A stretch of DNA of 64,000 nt from Candidatus Roizmanbacteria bacterium (GCA_016214055.1 JACRPE010000021.1:62001-126000); one strand, 5' to 3'. Positions 4,439-29,021 are shown, counted from the first letter of the stretch. Made by a program: numbers and translations. The notes: generated from the sequence alone by a model not told the origin.

Positions 4439-5410
4439 TTAAGAAGATTGGTATACAGGAATTACTTTATTGTTAGTATCTTTTTGTTGATTAAAAAGAG
4501 TATTTTGACTTTGGAGATATTCTTCAATTCTTTTTCCTGCTAACTCGCAATATTTTTGATCATTGTCGTATGCAACATATCGTCTTTTAGTTTTTAATGC
4601 AGCAAGACAAGTAGTTCCACTACCAACAAAGGGATCAAGGATAACTTCATCTTCAAAGGTATAAAGTTGAATTAAACGATACGGAAGTTCAATAGGAAAT
4701 GGAGCTGGATGACCTATTCTTGAGGCTCTTTCGGCCGAAAATGTCCAAATACTTTTCGTATATTCCATAAATTCTTCTTTTGTAATTGTTGGTTTTCGTG
4801 CCACAGGTTTTTTTCTTGCAAAACCGTCTTTGGAGAAAATAAGAATATATTCATGAATATCTCTTAGAGTTGGATTAGTCGCCGATAGCCAGCTACCCCA
4901 GGCAAAGGACTGACTGGCAGACGATGCTTTATTCCATATAACCTCACCCCTCATAAGAAATCCTAATTTTTGCATGTCCTCAATAACATAGGAATGAATA
5001 GGTAAGTACGGTTTTCTGCCTAAATTAGCAATATTAACACAAACCCTCCCACCAGGAATTAAAACTCGATAAGTTTCTTTGAATACCTTTGTGAGTAGAT
5101 CTCGATACTCATTCATTGACAAATTTTTATCGTAATCTTTTCCAACATTGTAAGGAGGAGAAGTCACCATCAAATGAACACTGTTATCGGGAAGTTCTGT
5201 CATCTGCTCACTACTTTTACAAAAAACTTTATTGATATTTTCCTGAGGAATAGGATTTTCTAAATCTTTGGCAAAATAAGTGTTATTTGATCCGGCATAG
5301 ATCTTGCTATTGTAGAACTTTGAAGAGTCATGGTTTATTCGTGTTCCTACTCCAAAAGAGGAAGTTTGAGATCCATTACTTTTTCCGTTTGGTTTCAAGA
5401 TGCTATTCAT
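4439..5410 (-). CDS. Site-specific DNA methyltransferase (beta-type motif order), modification subunit
   Basis: VTSPPYNVGKDYD (motif IV) precedes DPFVGSGTTCLAALKTKRRYVAYDND (motif I). Confidence 0.9.
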   Translation of the reverse strand: MNSILKPNGKSNGSQTSSFGVGTRINHDSSKFYNSKIYAGSNNTYFAKDLENPIPQENINKVFCKSSEQMTELPDNSVHLMVTSPPYNVGKDYDKNLSMNEYRDLLTKVFKETYRVLIPGGRVCVNIANLGRKPYLPIHSYVIEDMQKLGFLMRGEVIWNKASSASQSFAWGSWLSATNPTLRDIHEYILIFSKDGFARKKPVARKPTITKEEFMEYTKSIWTFSAERASRIGHPAPFPIELPYRLIQLYTFEDEVILDPFVGSGTTCLAALKTKRRYVAYDNDQKYCELAGKRIEEYLQSQNTLFNQQKDTNNKVIPVYQSS

Positions 5411-5411
5411 A

Positions 5412-6299
5412 TCAATCCCCTGAATTTTTTATAAGTTGTAAAAACTTTTCTGCCTTTTGTTCGTAAGTTTGTTCCTTATTGGCAATTTCAACAATTTCAC
5501 CTAATTTCTTTTTATTTTGCATACTGGAGAAAAATTGTCGTTCTTCTTTTAGAAGCTCTAATGAATTTTCTTTCAATTCATCATAGGAATCAAAACGATA
5601 GAAACCATTCTTGGGTGTATTTTTAATATCTTCATCGTTATTGTCTAAAGGTTTAGAATTAACGGACCAAAAACCCTGAATAATACCATTTTGTTTTAGG
5701 TGGTCAACTTTTTTGTAATATCCGGCGTTTATAGGTGTGTTACCAATGACGATAATAGGAATTCTTGCCGCTTTATCACTGGAAACCCGAATATTGATGC
5801 TTTTACCTATCGCTTTAAGCATTGAATCGGATCGGCGAATACTTGGTTGTCCTGTATGCGTTTTATAGTCGCCAACACAAATGATCTCTGGTTGTCCCTT
5901 AGCCTGTTTATATTCCCAGTTCCAGACAATAGACATTTTAACCTCGGCTATCATGAGAATATTTTCAGGTTTTTGGACAATATCCTTGGATGTGCAAATT
6001 GCTACATCTGCCGGTGATTGACTAGTTAGTCCGATTTCTTCGCAAATTGCACCTTGAACTGAATAGCCACTTAATTGTTTGGCAATTTCAGAAAAAAGAT
6101 CAGTAGACCATTTTTCAGTATACGTACCAATTAAAGAGTTTCTACTTTGAAGGGTTGATTTAGTATCGCCATAATCTTTTGGCCAATAGGCATAAAATTT
6201 TTTATTAGAGGTAGCATAAAACAGTTGTTCAGGAGTGGCAAAGTTTAACGATTTAATAAAAAAGTCATATTCATCTTCTTTTTTCCATAACATCTTCAT
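5412..6299 (-). CDS. Putative type II restriction endonuclease, PD-(D/E)XK type
   Basis: Directly adjacent to and co-oriented with the methyltransferase; PADVAICTS...ILMIAEVKMS fits a PD-x(n)-ExK site. Confidence 0.7.
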   Translation of the reverse strand: MKMLWKKEDEYDFFIKSLNFATPEQLFYATSNKKFYAYWPKDYGDTKSTLQSRNSLIGTYTEKWSTDLFSEIAKQLSGYSVQGAICEEIGLTSQSPADVAICTSKDIVQKPENILMIAEVKMSIVWNWEYKQAKGQPEIICVGDYKTHTGQPSIRRSDSMLKAIGKSINIRVSSDKAARIPIIVIGNTPINAGYYKKVDHLKQNGIIQGFWSVNSKPLDNNDEDIKNTPKNGFYRFDSYDELKENSLELLKEERQFFSSMQNKKKLGEIVEIANKEQTYEQKAEKFLQLIKNSGD

Positions 6300-21455: not shown

Positions 21456-22805
21456 ATGAAAAAACTCTGGCAGAAGGATGAAAAAGATAGTAGTAAATTA
21501 GTTGAAGATTATTGTTTCAGCGACGGAGTTGCATTGGATAATAATCTGGTTAACCATGATGTGTACGGCTCAATTGCTCATACGTGTGCATTGGCAAAGC
21601 TAAAAATTATTACCAATCTTGAGCTTGAAAAACTTGTTAAGTGTTTAAAAGAAATAATAGATCTCAATAAAAAGGGGAAATTCATCGTAACAGGAGGAGA
21701 TGAAGATGTTCACACTAAAGTTGAGAAATATCTGACTGAAAAGCTTGGAGATTTGGGTAAAAAAATTCATACAGCTAGAAGTCGAAACGATCAAATAGCG
21801 GTTGATATGAGACTGTATACAAAGGAGGAATTATTGAATATTGCAGTATTGATTAATAAATTAACCGATACTTACTTACATTTTGCAGAGAAATATGAGT
21901 TTATCCCTATGCCTGGATATACTCACATGCAAAAAGCCATGCCGTCATCAATTGGCATGTGGATAGGAAGTTTTGTTGAAAGCTTGATGGATGACTCAAA
22001 AATGTTACAAACTACCTATGAGCTTAATGATCAGTGCCCATTAGGTGCGGGAGCGGCTTATGGCTTATCATTACCCATTGACCGGGAATTGACAGCCGGA
22101 TTACTTGGCTTTTCAAAAGTACTTAATAACTCATTATATGCGATTTTATCACGCGCAAAATCCCACACCGTGGTAATGCAATCTTTGGTGCAAGTCATGT
22201 TAACTTTGTCCAGATTTGCTCAAGATATGCTTTTATTTACTACTTCAGAGTTTAACTTTTTCAAAGTTGATTCCCAGCTTTGTACCGGGTCAAGTATTAT
22301 GCCGCAGAAAAAAAATTTAGACATTATGGAATTTTTACGTGCAAAAACCCATGTGGTAATCGGATATGAGCAAATGGTTAATTCAATATCGGCAGGCTTG
22401 CCTTCTGGTTATAATGCCGATTTCAGTGAAACAAAGGGGCCTCTAATGAAATCAATTGGAATCGTAAAAGAATCTCTAAAGGTTGTTGATCTATTGATAA
22501 ATTCCATTAAACCTAACATTGAAATATTAAGTAATTCTATGACAAAGGAATTGTATGCTACGCATGCCGCGTATGAGTTGGTCAAGAAAGGAATACCTTT
22601 TCGCGAGGCATATGTCAAAATCGGAACATCTCTGGATGAGTTGCCACAATATAACAGTCAAGAAATATTAAAAATGTCTACTCATACAGGGGGAACAGGC
22701 AATTTAGGATTAAAAAAAATCCAAAAAGATTTCAGCAAGCAAGAAAATTACTGGCTGAAGGAAAAAAAGAAATATATGTCTGTTATTAATAAATTAATTG
22801 CATAA
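21456..22805 (+). CDS. argH: Argininosuccinate lyase
   Basis: GGDEDVHTKVEKYLTEKLGDLGKKIHTARSRNDQIAVDMRLY, PGYTHMQKAMPSS, GSSIMPQKKNLDIMEFLRAKT. Confidence 0.96.
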   Translation: MKKLWQKDEKDSSKLVEDYCFSDGVALDNNLVNHDVYGSIAHTCALAKLKIITNLELEKLVKCLKEIIDLNKKGKFIVTGGDEDVHTKVEKYLTEKLGDLGKKIHTARSRNDQIAVDMRLYTKEELLNIAVLINKLTDTYLHFAEKYEFIPMPGYTHMQKAMPSSIGMWIGSFVESLMDDSKMLQTTYELNDQCPLGAGAAYGLSLPIDRELTAGLLGFSKVLNNSLYAILSRAKSHTVVMQSLVQVMLTLSRFAQDMLLFTTSEFNFFKVDSQLCTGSSIMPQKKNLDIMEFLRAKTHVVIGYEQMVNSISAGLPSGYNADFSETKGPLMKSIGIVKESLKVVDLLINSIKPNIEILSNSMTKELYATHAAYELVKKGIPFREAYVKIGTSLDELPQYNSQEILKMSTHTGGTGNLGLKKIQKDFSKQENYWLKEKKKYMSVINKLIA

Positions 22806-22879
22806 GCAAATGTTAAAAACAAAACTGAGGTGATATTGATCGACGGGCATTTATTATTAATTATTTATTAAACAATATT

Positions 22880-24136
22880 ATGAAAAACACAACGTCCTAT
22901 CAAAAAGTCGCCTCATACGAGGCCAAAGTCGGTGAAGTTAAAAAAGTTTTACTTCTCTACTCGGGAGGTTTGGATACTTCAGTCATGTTGAAATGGATTC
23001 AAGACGAGTACAAAGCGCAGGTCATTGCGGTGACTTTGGATATTGGTCAGCAAAAAGATGATCTTGAATCCATAAAGAAAAAAGCACTTAAGTTTGGAGC
23101 TGTGAAAGCCATTACGTATGATGCAAAAGATGAATTTGCCGAAGAATTTCTTGCAAAAGGAATAAAGGCAAATGCGTCATACCAGGGTGATTATCACCTA
23201 TCAACTCCCATGGGGCGTGCAATATTGGCAAAAAAAGCCGTTGAGATAGCCAAGAAAGAAGGGGCGGATTGTGTCGCTCACGGTTGCACCGGCAAAGGGA
23301 ATGATCAGGTCAGACTTGATGGATATATCCTCACTTTTGACCCGATGATGAAGATAATTGCCCCCGTTCGAGAGTGGCAAATGGACCGCAATGAAGAAAT
23401 AAAGTATGCGCAAAAATATCATATCCCCGTCCCGGCGAGCATGGATTTTCCCTACAGTGTGGATGATAATATGTGGGGTATGACTTGGGAAGGCGGAGAA
23501 ATTGAAGAGCCTCATCTCATCGCTCCCATTGAAAAATTTTTGACCACCTATACCTTGGCAAAAAACGCACCTAATACAGAGGAATTTGTCAATATCCAAT
23601 TTGAAAAGGGAATACCTGTTGGATTAAACGGAAAAAAGATGAAGCTTTCTCAACTGATTGTAACGCTTAACAAAATCGCGGGTAAACATGGCGTTGGAGT
23701 TGTCCATATGTTTGAGGACCGATTGGTAGGAGTCAAAAATGGTGGGGTGTATGAGTTACCAGCGGCTCATGTGATCATAAAGGCACATAAGCACTTGGAG
23801 AAATTTGTATCGACGAGAATGTTGAACGAATTAAAAGAGACGATGGATCTCAAATGGGGATATCTCTGTTACGCCGCTCTATGGTACGACCCGATTATGA
23901 ATGCGATTAACGCGTTTAACGATAAAGTAAATGAGAAAGTAACGGGTGAAGTCACAGTAAAACTGTATAAAGGAAGCGCAAAGGCGGTAGCGATGACATC
24001 TCCCTACGGTCTAGATCATACCTCATTCACCAGTATCGGAGGGTATTCGTTTAACGTCAATGCAAGTGCCGGATTTACGGAGATTTATACGTTACAAATG
24101 AAATTGGCAAATCAAGTGGGGAAGAAAAAGAAATGA
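22880..24136 (+). CDS. argG: Argininosuccinate synthase
   Basis: VLLLYSGGLDTSVMLKWIQDEY, AHGCTGKGNDQVRLD, DPMMKIIAPVREW, GMTWEGGEIE. Confidence 0.97.
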   Translation: MKNTTSYQKVASYEAKVGEVKKVLLLYSGGLDTSVMLKWIQDEYKAQVIAVTLDIGQQKDDLESIKKKALKFGAVKAITYDAKDEFAEEFLAKGIKANASYQGDYHLSTPMGRAILAKKAVEIAKKEGADCVAHGCTGKGNDQVRLDGYILTFDPMMKIIAPVREWQMDRNEEIKYAQKYHIPVPASMDFPYSVDDNMWGMTWEGGEIEEPHLIAPIEKFLTTYTLAKNAPNTEEFVNIQFEKGIPVGLNGKKMKLSQLIVTLNKIAGKHGVGVVHMFEDRLVGVKNGGVYELPAAHVIIKAHKHLEKFVSTRMLNELKETMDLKWGYLCYAALWYDPIMNAINAFNDKVNEKVTGEVTVKLYKGSAKAVAMTSPYGLDHTSFTSIGGYSFNVNASAGFTEIYTLQMKLANQVGKKKK

Positions 24137-24180: not shown

Positions 24181-26244
24181 ATGATAGAAAAAATTAATTT
24201 AGAGAAGTTGGCTGGCAATTCAAAAGGAAAGAATCAGTTGGCTTTCATGTCGGCATATACAGGCATAGAAAGCTCCCAGATTAATGCACTCTCAGATGAA
24301 CACGCCAAGAAGGTCTTTCTGGGATTGTACAAACAACTGGATCTCATTACTATGCTCCATGGAAAACCAACTCAGGAAGCACTTCATCACTCAGTAGATG
24401 ACTATTTCCAAGGTACTCAGGATATGGAAAAAACCGCTTCTCAGATCAATTCCCTGATGGTATTTGGTGATGTGAGACCTCTTGAAGGCACCGGACTTGA
24501 ACATCTTCATAAACGCCTGGGGCATTTCTGGCGAATTCTGGGATGGGAAGAGCTGGGTCAAATGGAACAAGGTGATACCAAATTACAAAGTGGTTCCATT
24601 GAAGAAGTACAGCGATCCTCGGGAAATCTCATAAGAACACTCGATCTATTAGCTGAACAATGGAAGGAAAACCATATCGGACCCCATCTTATATATCCGC
24701 AAAGTAATGAAGGCGATGCTAAAGTAACCAGACAAGTAACAACTGGATATGGACTTATCAAGCGTCAAGATAAATATAGCAACTCAACAGTGGTTTTAAG
24801 CTCACAGAAACAGTCATATCCATCGGAGGATGATAAAAAATTTTACGATTCCCAAACAAATTTACTTCAACGGCTCCTTGATCGCTATCCTATGGAAATT
24901 GCTATAGCCGTGTATGATTATCATGCTTTTGTTGAAGGATTGGGTGAAAAAAAACTCAATATTGCATATGTCCAAGAATATAAGCAGAATGGCACACTTA
25001 AAGTAAAGGGGGTTATTAACGGTAAAGGCATGATTTTGTTGGGAAAACAAACCAATGATGTATTTAATTATCAGACTATAGCCGCATCAATAAACGAATC
25101 AGTAGTCGGCATGACACACGAATCTCCCTTTGAAACTTTTAATATTGAAACGGACTCTAATAGCTTTGTTACCTTCGTCCAAGGAAAAGCGGCAGTTTTA
25201 CTTGCGGAAAACCCCGCTGATGTTGGACAACTTTCAGTGCATCCGACCAAAATCGCCCAACATTTGCTTAACTACACTAAACAATCGGAAGGTGCATTTT
25301 CCAAAAATGTTCCCTACTCAAGACAAGGTAAACCCATATGTTCGACAAAACTTGTCGGGGTATCCGAATATCAATCTACCCCAATTACTGTTGAGTCGAT
25401 CGGTAAAGCAGGAGAATCAATTAGTCAGTATTTGAGAAAACACAATGTCCAATTCGTTAATATCGAAGCCGGACATATTCATGCAGATGCAACACCCACT
25501 ACTAGACAAAAAACAGGTATCTCAATAGGGGCGCAATTGAGTAAAATATTATCCGGTGTGTGTACTGTGAAAAAGACGACTATGATAGATGAAGATCATG
25601 TCCCCAATGCATTGGATCATGTGGGTTATTCTAGACTTATGCATGAATTGGGTTTCGAATTGGACGAATTGATTTATGAATCATCACCGGCTATCCGGGA
25701 AATCGCAATATCAGCGATTGTAAGTCTCCAACAACAATATCCTGATCATGTATATAAAAATGGTCAGGCATTAATGTTCAATATTCCAGATACGGACTTG
25801 CAGGTTGAACTCATCAAAGACATAGCGGAACCGGATGTCGAGCTGGGATGCGTCATTTTTGATGTAGGCCTTACCTTGGCAAAAGTTTATCCACAACTGG
25901 CCGATACATATTTAACGGGAGGATCGGCGGCTGTTCATGCGGCTATGCAAAAGATTTATACTGATATACAATCACCGTCAGAGAGACAAAGAGCAGTAAA
26001 AAAAGCATTCCCAAATAAGACCAGAACATATGAGGAGGCATTAGTCGCAAAACCACTTCCTGAAGTTGATAACGTAAATTCGGCTGTCATCAACGTTTTG
26101 GAGCGGTTTTATGATGGACAACAGGTAAAACTTGAGGGAATGCTACGTGCGCTTAAGATTCCAATTCACCTTGTCGATGTTACCTTCTCGGATCAAGGAT
26201 TACACGTTAACATGTCCACAAATGGGTTTTCAGAGAGTAATTAA
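24181..26244 (+). CDS. Large protein of unknown function (687 aa) in the arginine block
   Basis: Long clean ORF, co-oriented between argG and the PLP enzyme; no family I recognise. Confidence 0.9.
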   Translation: MIEKINLEKLAGNSKGKNQLAFMSAYTGIESSQINALSDEHAKKVFLGLYKQLDLITMLHGKPTQEALHHSVDDYFQGTQDMEKTASQINSLMVFGDVRPLEGTGLEHLHKRLGHFWRILGWEELGQMEQGDTKLQSGSIEEVQRSSGNLIRTLDLLAEQWKENHIGPHLIYPQSNEGDAKVTRQVTTGYGLIKRQDKYSNSTVVLSSQKQSYPSEDDKKFYDSQTNLLQRLLDRYPMEIAIAVYDYHAFVEGLGEKKLNIAYVQEYKQNGTLKVKGVINGKGMILLGKQTNDVFNYQTIAASINESVVGMTHESPFETFNIETDSNSFVTFVQGKAAVLLAENPADVGQLSVHPTKIAQHLLNYTKQSEGAFSKNVPYSRQGKPICSTKLVGVSEYQSTPITVESIGKAGESISQYLRKHNVQFVNIEAGHIHADATPTTRQKTGISIGAQLSKILSGVCTVKKTTMIDEDHVPNALDHVGYSRLMHELGFELDELIYESSPAIREIAISAIVSLQQQYPDHVYKNGQALMFNIPDTDLQVELIKDIAEPDVELGCVIFDVGLTLAKVYPQLADTYLTGGSAAVHAAMQKIYTDIQSPSERQRAVKKAFPNKTRTYEEALVAKPLPEVDNVNSAVINVLERFYDGQQVKLEGMLRALKIPIHLVDVTFSDQGLHVNMSTNGFSESN

Positions 26245-26253
26245 CTGACCCAT

Positions 26254-27273
26254 ATGATATACCATTCACTCTTTTGCATGACATGCAAAAAAAAACTTAA
26301 AGACACCCAGATCATTTGTCCCAAGTGTAAAAATGTTTATTCGTTAGTCACGTTGAAATACTTTGTCCGAAAAAAATTATCGACTATTGAAGAAATGTAT
26401 AGATATTTTCTGCCGTTCCAATTATTCAATCATAATGACTTCAAGAATTGTTCATTGAGTAAATATGGAGATGGACTTTGGCTTAAAGATGAAGGACTCA
26501 ATCAAAGCAAATCAATCAAGGAAAAAGATATATTGATAGGCCTTAAGTGCGCCTTTTATCTGGGATATAAGAAAACGATGTGTGTATCCGGAGGAAGTGG
26601 CATTCAGGTAGTCAGCTCATTATCAAAGAATACTATTCCTGTTACATTATATTCGCCAACTTCAACCCGTATACTCGTCGATAACCAAATTCTAATGGGT
26701 AATGATTACGAGGAAACATTTCGTATGTCCCTAAAGATGCAATCCGATGATTTATTCAATATCACCCCAGGAATCAATCCATATTCGCAAGAGGGGTGCA
26801 AAACAATCAGCTGGCAGCTTATCGAGTCAAAAATCAAATTTGACATTATTATAATTCCATGTGGAAATGGCTCCTCTTTATGGGGTATTTATAATGGTTT
26901 TAAAGAAGCAAAAGCCAAAGGTTTCATAAGTAAGATACCCAAGATATTCGGTGTGGAGCTTGCTCATGGGCCTATCCATCATATGTTGCGCACTGGAAAA
27001 ATAAGAGTGAACAAGAATATTCTGAACAGTAAGGCAATAAGTGTCGATGTAAAGGAAAGCTTCTGTCTCCAAAAAGCATCATATGCAACAAAGGACAGCC
27101 ATGGCGGCATAGTCAAAGTATCAGAGAGTAATGTCATAGATTCATATAACCAAATTCGTCTTGCAAACAAACAAATCTCGTTTACAGCGGCGACAGCTTT
27201 TGCAGCGGCACTCAAGTTAAGAAAGAAAAACCCTAAATCCATTATGTGTTGTATTATGACATCCCATCACTAA
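26254..27273 (+). CDS. Divergent PLP fold-type II enzyme, threonine-synthase-like with N-terminal zinc ribbon
   Basis: CMTCKKKLKDTQIICPKCK zinc ribbon; LKDEGLNQSKSIKEKDI (threonine synthase SFKDR-like lysine region); IIIPCGNGSSLWGIYNGFKEAKAKGFI; SFTAATAFAAALKL. Confidence 0.8.
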   Translation: MIYHSLFCMTCKKKLKDTQIICPKCKNVYSLVTLKYFVRKKLSTIEEMYRYFLPFQLFNHNDFKNCSLSKYGDGLWLKDEGLNQSKSIKEKDILIGLKCAFYLGYKKTMCVSGGSGIQVVSSLSKNTIPVTLYSPTSTRILVDNQILMGNDYEETFRMSLKMQSDDLFNITPGINPYSQEGCKTISWQLIESKIKFDIIIIPCGNGSSLWGIYNGFKEAKAKGFISKIPKIFGVELAHGPIHHMLRTGKIRVNKNILNSKAISVDVKESFCLQKASYATKDSHGGIVKVSESNVIDSYNQIRLANKQISFTAATAFAAALKLRKKNPKSIMCCIMTSHH

Positions 27274-27326: not shown

Positions 27327-29021
27327 ATGTTAATTGAGGAAGTTCAGTCCATAGTTCAAAAAGCGGCGGAGAAGATTGGAATAACTGAAAAGGTTGTCAT
27401 AGATGCCCCCACCCAAAAACAATTTGGTGATTTTGTGACGAATATTGCCCTGAAATCGGCAAAAGTTCTGAAGAAAAAACCTGCAGATATTGCACAAGAG
27501 CTTGTGAAGAATATTCCAAAAAATGATTTGATCACCGAGACAAAAATAATTGGTCCCGGGTTTATCAATTTTTGGATTAAATCGGGCATTAATTTTGATG
27601 TAGCAAAAAAAATTGCAGAAAATGTTTTTGACATTCCCTCCTTTCACTTTGGCCCCGAGAAAAAAGTGATGGTTGAATTTGCACACCCTAACACTCTTAA
27701 ACTTCTTCATATTGGCCACATGCGCAACCTCTCAACAGGTGAGGCGGTAGTTCGCCTCCTTGAGGCAACGGGGAATAAAGTGGTGAGATCAAATTATCAG
27801 GGTGATGTAGGATTGCACATTGCAAAAACGATTTGGAAAATCCGACAGGTGGTAAAAGAAATGGGTGATAAAGAGATCGACGCTTTATCTTTACGCGATA
27901 AGATTGCGCTTCTTGGAAAAGCCTATGCTGAGGCAGAGACCGCGTATGGCAGTGACGAAAATGCAAAGAAGGAAATACTTGAGGTTAACCGCATGGTATA
28001 TGAGGAGAATCCAAGCGTCATGCCCCTTTGGGAAAAGACGAGAAAGTGGAGTCTTCAATATTTTGGCGAAATTTATAAAAGAGTTTATTCCCATCATGAT
28101 CGCTTATATTTCGAAAGTGAGTGTCATAAACGGGGCACCATCCTTGCGGCAGATCTATTGAAAAAAGGAATTCTTGAAAAAAGCCAAGGAGCCATCGTTT
28201 TTATGGGAAAGAAGTATGGAGTTGATACGAGGGTATTTATCAATTCTCTTGGTTTTCCTACCTATGAAGGTAAGGAATTAGCACTTGCCGAGATGGAGTT
28301 CAGCGAATTTGGTAGCCTTGATAAAACTATTCATGTAGTCACCCCCGAACAGACAAGCTTTTTCCAGGTGACTTTTAAAGTAGAAGAACTTATTGATCCA
28401 ATAAAATTCAAAAGCAAACAATATCATCTTGCGTATAATTGGGTTAAACTCAAAAAGGGTAAAATGTCATCACGCCTTGGAAACGTAATTGAGGGATCTT
28501 GGCTTATTGATGAAGCAAAAAAATCCTTAAAAGAGAAATTTAAACTTGATGAAGAAACGGCGGAAACGTTGGCCGTTGCCTCGATAAAATATTCTTTTTT
28601 GAAGGTATCCCCTCAGATTGAAATCTTTTTTGATTTTGATGAGTCAATATCACTTGAGGGAAACTCAGCTCCTTATCTAATTTACACCTATGTCCGCACT
28701 CAAAGCGTCCTGCAAAAAAATATGGAAAACGCGAAGATTGAAGAAATAAAAGATCCCAACGAAGATGAAAAAATGTTACTCCGCAAGATTTCACAATATG
28801 CTCCAACCGTATATGAGACAACAGCCAGACTTTCACCAAATATTTTAGCAACGTATCTCTTTGAATTAGCGCAGGATTTTAATCTCTTTTATCAGAAAAA
28901 TCCTATACTCAAAGCAGAAGGTGAAAAAAGATCAACTCGCCTCGTATTGACAAAAGGTGTAGGAAATATTATCCGACATGGCTTAAATCTTTTGGGAATA
29001 AAAACAGTGGAGAAGATGTAA
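27327..29021 (+). CDS. argS: Arginyl-tRNA synthetase
   Basis: VEFAHPNTLKLLHIGHMRNLSTGEAVVRLLEATGNKVVRSNYQGDVGLHIAK; KLKKGKMSSRLGNVI; C-terminal anticodon-binding DALR-like region. Confidence 0.95.
   Translation: MLIEEVQSIVQKAAEKIGITEKVVIDAPTQKQFGDFVTNIALKSAKVLKKKPADIAQELVKNIPKNDLITETKIIGPGFINFWIKSGINFDVAKKIAENVFDIPSFHFGPEKKVMVEFAHPNTLKLLHIGHMRNLSTGEAVVRLLEATGNKVVRSNYQGDVGLHIAKTIWKIRQVVKEMGDKEIDALSLRDKIALLGKAYAEAETAYGSDENAKKEILEVNRMVYEENPSVMPLWEKTRKWSLQYFGEIYKRVYSHHDRLYFESECHKRGTILAADLLKKGILEKSQGAIVFMGKKYGVDTRVFINSLGFPTYEGKELALAEMEFSEFGSLDKTIHVVTPEQTSFFQVTFKVEELIDPIKFKSKQYHLAYNWVKLKKGKMSSRLGNVIEGSWLIDEAKKSLKEKFKLDEETAETLAVASIKYSFLKVSPQIEIFFDFDESISLEGNSAPYLIYTYVRTQSVLQKNMENAKIEEIKDPNEDEKMLLRKISQYAPTVYETTARLSPNILATYLFELAQDFNLFYQKNPILKAEGEKRSTRLVLTKGVGNIIRHGLNLLGIKTVEKM

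Follow-up and report, generated by a model that had tools for sequence, protein, structure and literature searches.

In a 64,000-nucleotide stretch of DNA (the window) from a Candidatus Roizmanbacteria bacterium (GCA_016214055.1, JACRPE010000021.1:62001-126000), two adjacent genes directly upstream of the arginyl-tRNA synthetase (ArgRS) gene argS encode a protein, X, whose C-terminal domain very probably has a class I aminoacyl-tRNA synthetase (aaRS) fold with ArgRS as its nearest relative, and a divergent pyridoxal phosphate (PLP) enzyme, Y. The translational parts of ArgRS, that is HIGH, KMSKS and the anticodon domain, are gone from the X domain, and residues on the guanidinium side are kept in relatives where argS adjoins. 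The source genome (1.2 Mb) belongs to the Candidate Phyla Radiation (CPR), bacteria that lack most biosynthesis and yet retain the X-Y pair. The pair points to a so far unrecognised, non-translational pathway that draws on arginine or on arginine-charged tRNA.

Genes in this region run argH-argG-X-Y-argS-radA on the plus strand with short gaps. X (687 aa) occupies 24181-26244 and Y (339 aa) 26254-27273. These open reading frame coordinates agree exactly with the original prediction, which had been made from the sequence alone and placed both genes between argG and argS with argH upstream. It had also described X as lacking a recognised family, and indeed no family was found in Pfam, NCBIfam or PHROGs and no sequence match in the PDB; weak matches (Porin_5 at E 0.006 in the Pfam/NCBIfam scans, an ArsD-related one at E 0.002) fell far under the cut-offs and were taken as chance. 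Single-protein searches of 287 genomes of the phylum returned no relatives of X, and, with X alone as the query, neither pattern searches in collections of genomes and viruses nor tblastn against phages and plasmids found anything. Full-length relatives were found in two other CPR genomes. A search at the level of the order identified one in another genus (G347; 664 aa, 41% identity), where the genes run X-Y-argS-radA and Y is 55% identical to that of the window, so the unexplained two-gene module described in the original prediction is conserved there as well. The other lies in G513 (672 aa, 22% identity), with argS not nearby. Change rates at codon positions 1/2/3 were 0.47/0.33/0.64 for X and 0.33/0.25/0.67 for Y, similar to the 0.35/0.21/0.62 of argS. 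Because the adjacent pair recurs in another genus and change falls mostly at third codon positions, the pair is not a product of chance, and X and Y are, on the evidence of their sequences, real genes under selection.

The family to which X belongs was identified through a separate 210-aa protein of G325 that resembles the X C-terminus and is encoded adjacent to a Y-like PLP enzyme and argS. With this protein as the query, and then with a profile of the protein and its relatives built without X (A7), we found a family of ~200 aa, named C0 here, in 16 of 381 CPR genomes (one of these, G188, being actually an argS match). C0 also occurs in six huge-phage contigs and in one Paenibacillus plasmid. 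Profiles built without X recovered the window X at E 1.5e-10 and later at 2.4e-17. The C0 equivalent in X is formed by the C-terminal ~280 residues (~405-687; 25393-26241, plus strand), which carry an insertion (residues ~569-633; 25885-26079) that separates the C557 helix from the core strand after it and is missing from short C0 members. The N-terminal region (residues 1-404; 24181-25392) is unique to X and without known fold; alignment of the three full-length X proteins showed conserved blocks, NxL.FG..G....L...L.HF.RI.G and Q-E-(Y/I). Neither Pfam nor PHROGs gave a match for C0 or X, C0 profiles gave chance matches only among PDB sequences, and literature searches found no ArgRS paralog family of the C0 type. 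C0 thus appears to be an undescribed family of aaRS-derived, non-translational proteins.

We sought the origin of this domain by structure and by profile comparison. AlphaFold on the single sequence of X was uninformative, with a predicted local distance difference test (pLDDT) score of 37. A model of a phage C0 member, computed from an alignment of the six phage members, the G325 protein (L016) and the window domain, the other CPR relatives being left out, reached pLDDT 83 and a predicted template-modelling score (pTM) of 0.82. Foldseek against the PDB, the kind of structural check that the original prediction had proposed, placed Thermus thermophilus ArgRS first (E 1.1e-5, probability 1.00), followed in order by P. 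horikoshii ArgRS, MetRS, C. jejuni ArgRS, CysRS and MshC. Query-side TM-scores of the leading matches were 0.5-0.6, values that we read as those of a predicted core without large insertions. Profile comparison pointed the same way. In hhalign the family without X scored 35.5 against ArgRS over 199 columns (probability 26%), while 13 control families scored at most 22 (probability at most 1.4%), and ArgRS was the best of the 14 for all four profiles, the X-only profile included. Among 330 neighbourhood proteins, ArgRS was the top non-member in hmmsearch for all four C0/X profiles (E 0.002-0.04); conversely, the top non-ArgRS match of the ArgRS profile was a C0 protein (E 4.3e-5), above a LeuRS/ValRS-type synthetase. 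An earlier unbiased search with a C0 profile had matched the G188 argS at E 8e-4.

Direct comparison of motifs locates what was kept and what was lost. The argS product of the window (27327-29021, plus strand; Pfam) is a normal ArgRS with VEFAHPN..HIGH and KMSSR intact, and is the sole ArgRS match in its own genome. Its segment VEFAHPNTLKLLHIGH aligns without gaps to the C0 segment (I/V)EAGHFYANEELTSEH. Since the two are in the same register, HIGH has been replaced in C0, where members read TSEH, TNEH, TTRQ or TIWS at this position. KMSKS was found in none of the 20 C0 members checked, the X domain stopping about where it would start, and Pfam returned no anticodon-binding (DALR) domain in X. 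The likeness to the ArgRS catalytic domain (PF00750) therefore consists of the same fold, the gapless VE(F/A)xH start, the FES motif and TC-x3-D of C0 in register with TY-x3-D/E of ArgRS; the difference consists of the missing signatures and anticodon-binding domain, a core of only ~200 aa, and the replacement of the pocket tyrosine by a family-invariant cysteine (C557 in X). Among CPR members, E429, H432, D470 and E500 of X are likewise invariant. Two of the ArgRS residues concerned, Glu148 and Asp351 (yeast numbering), are ones that we take, from the yeast ArgRS-arginine structure, to hold the guanidinium of arginine. The Asp351 position is Asp in 11 of 11 aligned subfamily-A proteins (D561 in X; also present in the G513 X) and in none of the nine from subfamily B; both acidic positions, E429 and D561, are kept in every argS-linked member. 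This pattern suggests that side-chain recognition was kept and adenylate chemistry lost.

The two subfamilies differ in sequence and in genomic context. Subfamily A carries EAGH(Y/F)Y... and C-x3-D and lies in arginine or argS neighbourhoods, which bears out arginine as the theme of the locus, as originally proposed; subfamily B carries VE(Y/F)xHIYTNE..., has no Asp after the Cys and is not argS-linked. The subfamily-A arrangements are X-Y-argS (the window genome, G000, and G347), C0-PLP-argS (G325), argS-C0-PLP (G593), arginine deiminase-argS/PLP-C0 (G073), arginine deiminase-argS...PLP-C0 (G087), arginine deiminase-argS/C0-OTC-M20 peptidase (G116; OTC, ornithine carbamoyltransferase) and argS-C0-racemase-M20-ArgA-like (G209). 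Overall, argS lies at most 5 genes from C0 in 8 of 12 subfamily-A genomes (not in G495, G115, G228 or G513), for which illustrative chance probabilities are ~5e-14 at 1% per genome and ~1e-8 with related genomes collapsed. A PLP gene is linked to C0 in 7 of the 12. A functional tie of X and C0 to argS is likely. The original prediction had tied X and Y to the argininosuccinate step. This candidate was rejected because argG is absent from most carriers: it was not found in G347, where X-Y-argS-radA is intact, nor in G325, G593, G073, G087 or G116. Of the expected co-occurrence with argGH, the conservation of the X-Y neighbourhood held and the partner did not, as the constant neighbour of the module is argS.

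Y proved to belong to a clade of PLP enzymes encoded near C0 genes. It matches PF00291 at E 9.8e-20, its top NCBIfam and PDB matches are threonine synthases, and its N-terminus carries a Zn-ribbon-like motif, C8-x2-C11...C22-x2-C25 (26275-26328), of which C8 and C22 are invariant in five aligned C0-linked PLP enzymes; the zinc ribbon and fold-type II features had been anticipated from the sequence. Zn-ribbon threonine synthases such as haloarchaeal ThrC share the fold and this type of N-terminus with Y and its C0-linked relatives, most of which also keep NPTGSFKDR. In Y this segment reads NQSKSIKEK and aligns without gaps, with N83 and K89 kept. The region is thus divergent, as had been noted, in that P-T-G is lost; the PLP-binding lysine, however, is retained as K89 (26518-26520), which contradicts a reading of its loss. 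The phosphate loop is kept (PCGNG), the small domain is shortened, there is no TAGG tail, and the SGN loop, whose Asn contacts PLP O3', is replaced by SGG, again as originally described, in both the window Y and the G347 Y; other members of the clade have SGN. In a tree, the window Y, the G347 Y and the five C0-linked PLP enzymes form a single 7-member clade (99/98 support) apart from the sampled threonine synthases, dehydratases and one cysteine synthase. The proposed divergence from threonine synthases is therefore upheld by this tree, by which an ordinary threonine synthase was rejected. Given the separate clade, the retained lysine and GNG loop, the SGG loop and the shortened small domain, Y is probably a catalytic, derived member of the C0-linked enzyme family.

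How might these two proteins act together? We tentatively favor, at somewhat below an even chance, a scheme in which X, an enzyme derived from ArgRS and working without ATP, passes arginine from Arg-tRNA to a partner made by Y. With HIGH and KMSKS lost, X is probably unable to activate amino acids on its own. The ArgRS encoded next to it would make the Arg-tRNA, and X would take over the arginyl group, with E429 and D561 as the acidic pair gripping the guanidinium, hold it perhaps as a thioester on C557, the candidate nucleophile, and pass it on to an acceptor provided by Y, either an amine or an amino acid. We infer the Arg-tRNA substrate, the thioester chemistry and the role of Y as supplier of the co-substrate, and the tRNA dependence of the transfer is itself offered with some reserve. 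The route would resemble that of cyclodipeptide synthases (CDPSs), separately evolved from ArgRS. CDPSs are class Ic aaRS-like enzymes without ATP motifs that form an acyl-enzyme from aminoacyl-tRNA (PMC5935735), and arginine-specific cyclodipeptide synthases that use aminoacyl-tRNA have been reported from eukaryotes (PMC11760959). The fold, the loss of ATP motifs and the compact size are shared with C0, and the comparison concerns a possible way of working. C0 differs in having an invariant Cys in contrast to the catalytic Ser of CDPSs and in its kinship to ArgRS and not to TyrRS/TrpRS, and the CDPS Pfam profile matched neither X nor the other C0 members tested. If the scheme is correct, chemistry like that of cyclodipeptide synthases would, with X, have arisen independently a second time from a class I synthetase. 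The module makes it testable whether a synthetase fold other than that of TyrRS/TrpRS became a tRNA-consuming metabolic enzyme.

Several observations weigh against this scheme or the kinship beneath it. The positions Asn153 and Gln375, which contact the alpha-amino group in yeast ArgRS, are not retained in C0, so amino-acid recognition must differ from that of ArgRS. No CDPS appeared among the listed Foldseek matches despite the class I aaRS fold of CDPSs, and no tailoring oxidase of the type found in CDPS clusters lies beside X-Y. Since argS linkage is missing in subfamily B, use of aminoacyl-tRNA need not be general in the family. The pairwise hhalign probability is modest, the three-dimensional kinship is read from a structure predicted for a phage relative, not for X itself, and the argS linkage was spotted before it was counted.

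Non-translational relatives of synthetases supply two of the competing explanations. MshC, EpmA, HisZ and GluQ-RS are all aaRS-derived, and MshC was among the fold matches; MshC, EpmA and GluQ-RS keep their ATP signatures, which C0 does not, and HisZ is of class II. HisZ, a HisRS paralog, is a precedent for a regulator, and the ArgRS-like domain of X could likewise be a catalytically dead arginine sensor controlling Y or ArgRS. Such a sensor would explain the lost HIGH and KMSKS, the kept guanidinium-side residues, the fused 400-aa extra domain and the argS linkage. Against a dead domain, the Cys at the helix start and the E/H/D residues look catalytic, since they never vary in the members from CPR bacteria, from phages and, by eye, from Paenibacillus; subfamily B, moreover, lacks the Asp351 equivalent yet keeps the other invariants. 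We consider a sensor unlikely. EpmA, a LysRS paralog, is paired with the PLP aminomutase EpmB; this precedent, together with the MshC (CysRS paralog) fold match, would fit a system in which Y makes a modified amino acid that X attaches to a protein or metabolite with ATP. Since EpmA and MshC retain ATP-binding signatures and X and all its relatives are without HIGH and KMSKS, this is improbable.

Two further explanations start from the arginine context. X could hydrolyse mis-charged tRNA(Arg), for instance canavanyl-tRNA, while Y degrades the arginine analogue. Consistent with this are the argS linkage and the arginine deiminase genes nearby in G073, G116 and G087. The threonine-synthase ancestry of Y fits too: enzymes related to Y use gamma-substituted homoserines, and a gamma-elimination acting on O-guanidino-homoserine would suit that ancestry. 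Deacylases that act on canavanyl-tRNA as stand-alone proteins exist, but those known are B3/B4-domain proteins and Pfam gave no B3/B4 match in X; the fused N-terminal half would be unaccounted for, and exposure to the analogue has no known instance. Detoxification of this kind seems distinctly unlikely. Closest to the original idea, X-Y could replace argF and supply citrulline to argG. Within the host's family the slot upstream of argS holds argH-argG-argF in G356 and argH-argG-argF-carA-carB in G290, and in the window genome X-Y occupies the argF slot. As the original prediction stated, the window contains no citrulline-producing genes, and a search of the whole genome likewise turned up no OTC; the sole carbamoyltransferase-family match (30% identity) lies beside carA-carB on another contig and reads as pyrB. 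Yet the module or its core occurs without argG in G347 and the other genomes named above, and a C0 protein coexists with a true OTC in G116 and G209, which makes simple replacement of argF unlikely. We know of no citrulline synthesis by a class I aaRS fold or a fold-type II PLP enzyme, and rate this possibility very low.

The remaining genes at the locus, argH-argG (21456-24136, with argG at 22880-24136; plus strand, Pfam and/or NCBIfam), adjoin X-Y and are not conserved partners. The slot upstream of argS (L103-L108) is a hot spot at which gene content varies among members of the host's family. In G288, of the same genus, it holds GNAT-like genes, an M20 peptidase and a metallo-beta-lactamase-like gene (partly identified by eye), and in G294 other genes again (names partly by eye).

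The module around X also provides a first functional clue to an unexplained gene that recurs in CPR bacteria, and to its counterparts encoded next to histidine kinases or carried by huge phages. As a wider conjecture, and a doubtful one, C0 may be an ArgRS-derived, ATP-independent, possibly tRNA-dependent superfamily that has radiated both in CPR bacteria and in huge phages, with the X branch transferring arginine from Arg-tRNA alongside argS and a PLP enzyme and the other branch making a signal sensed by a neighbouring seven-transmembrane (7TM) histidine kinase. Subfamily B recurs in CPR genomes (L041-L046) in a module of a GNAT-like protein, the C0B protein and a histidine kinase with an N-terminal 7TM region. 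The GNAT-like proteins are often membrane-fused and mostly without Pfam match, and the 7TM region is PF16927 in the two kinases tested; the module looks like an undescribed signal-synthase/receptor system. In viral scans subfamily-A profiles found nothing and subfamily-B profiles twice returned the same six IMG/VR huge-phage contigs (L057-L062, 182-465 kb), each with a well-conserved C0B protein at ~4950-5610. In G513 (L081, 1628-7930) the full-length X is followed by 226- and 477-aa proteins without Pfam match, an M19 dipeptidase, an amidohydrolase and then hisS (by eye), possibly a cluster for a peptide-like product beside another synthetase gene. On the Paenibacillus thiaminolyticus plasmid NZ_CP106993.1 (L063, 6685-10624), C0B ends a row of nadE, an 84-aa protein, a phytanoyl-CoA-dioxygenase-like protein and a 431-aa protein with a phosphoribosyltransferase-like motif (by eye), an arrangement that suggests a nucleotide-cofactor pathway using C0B.
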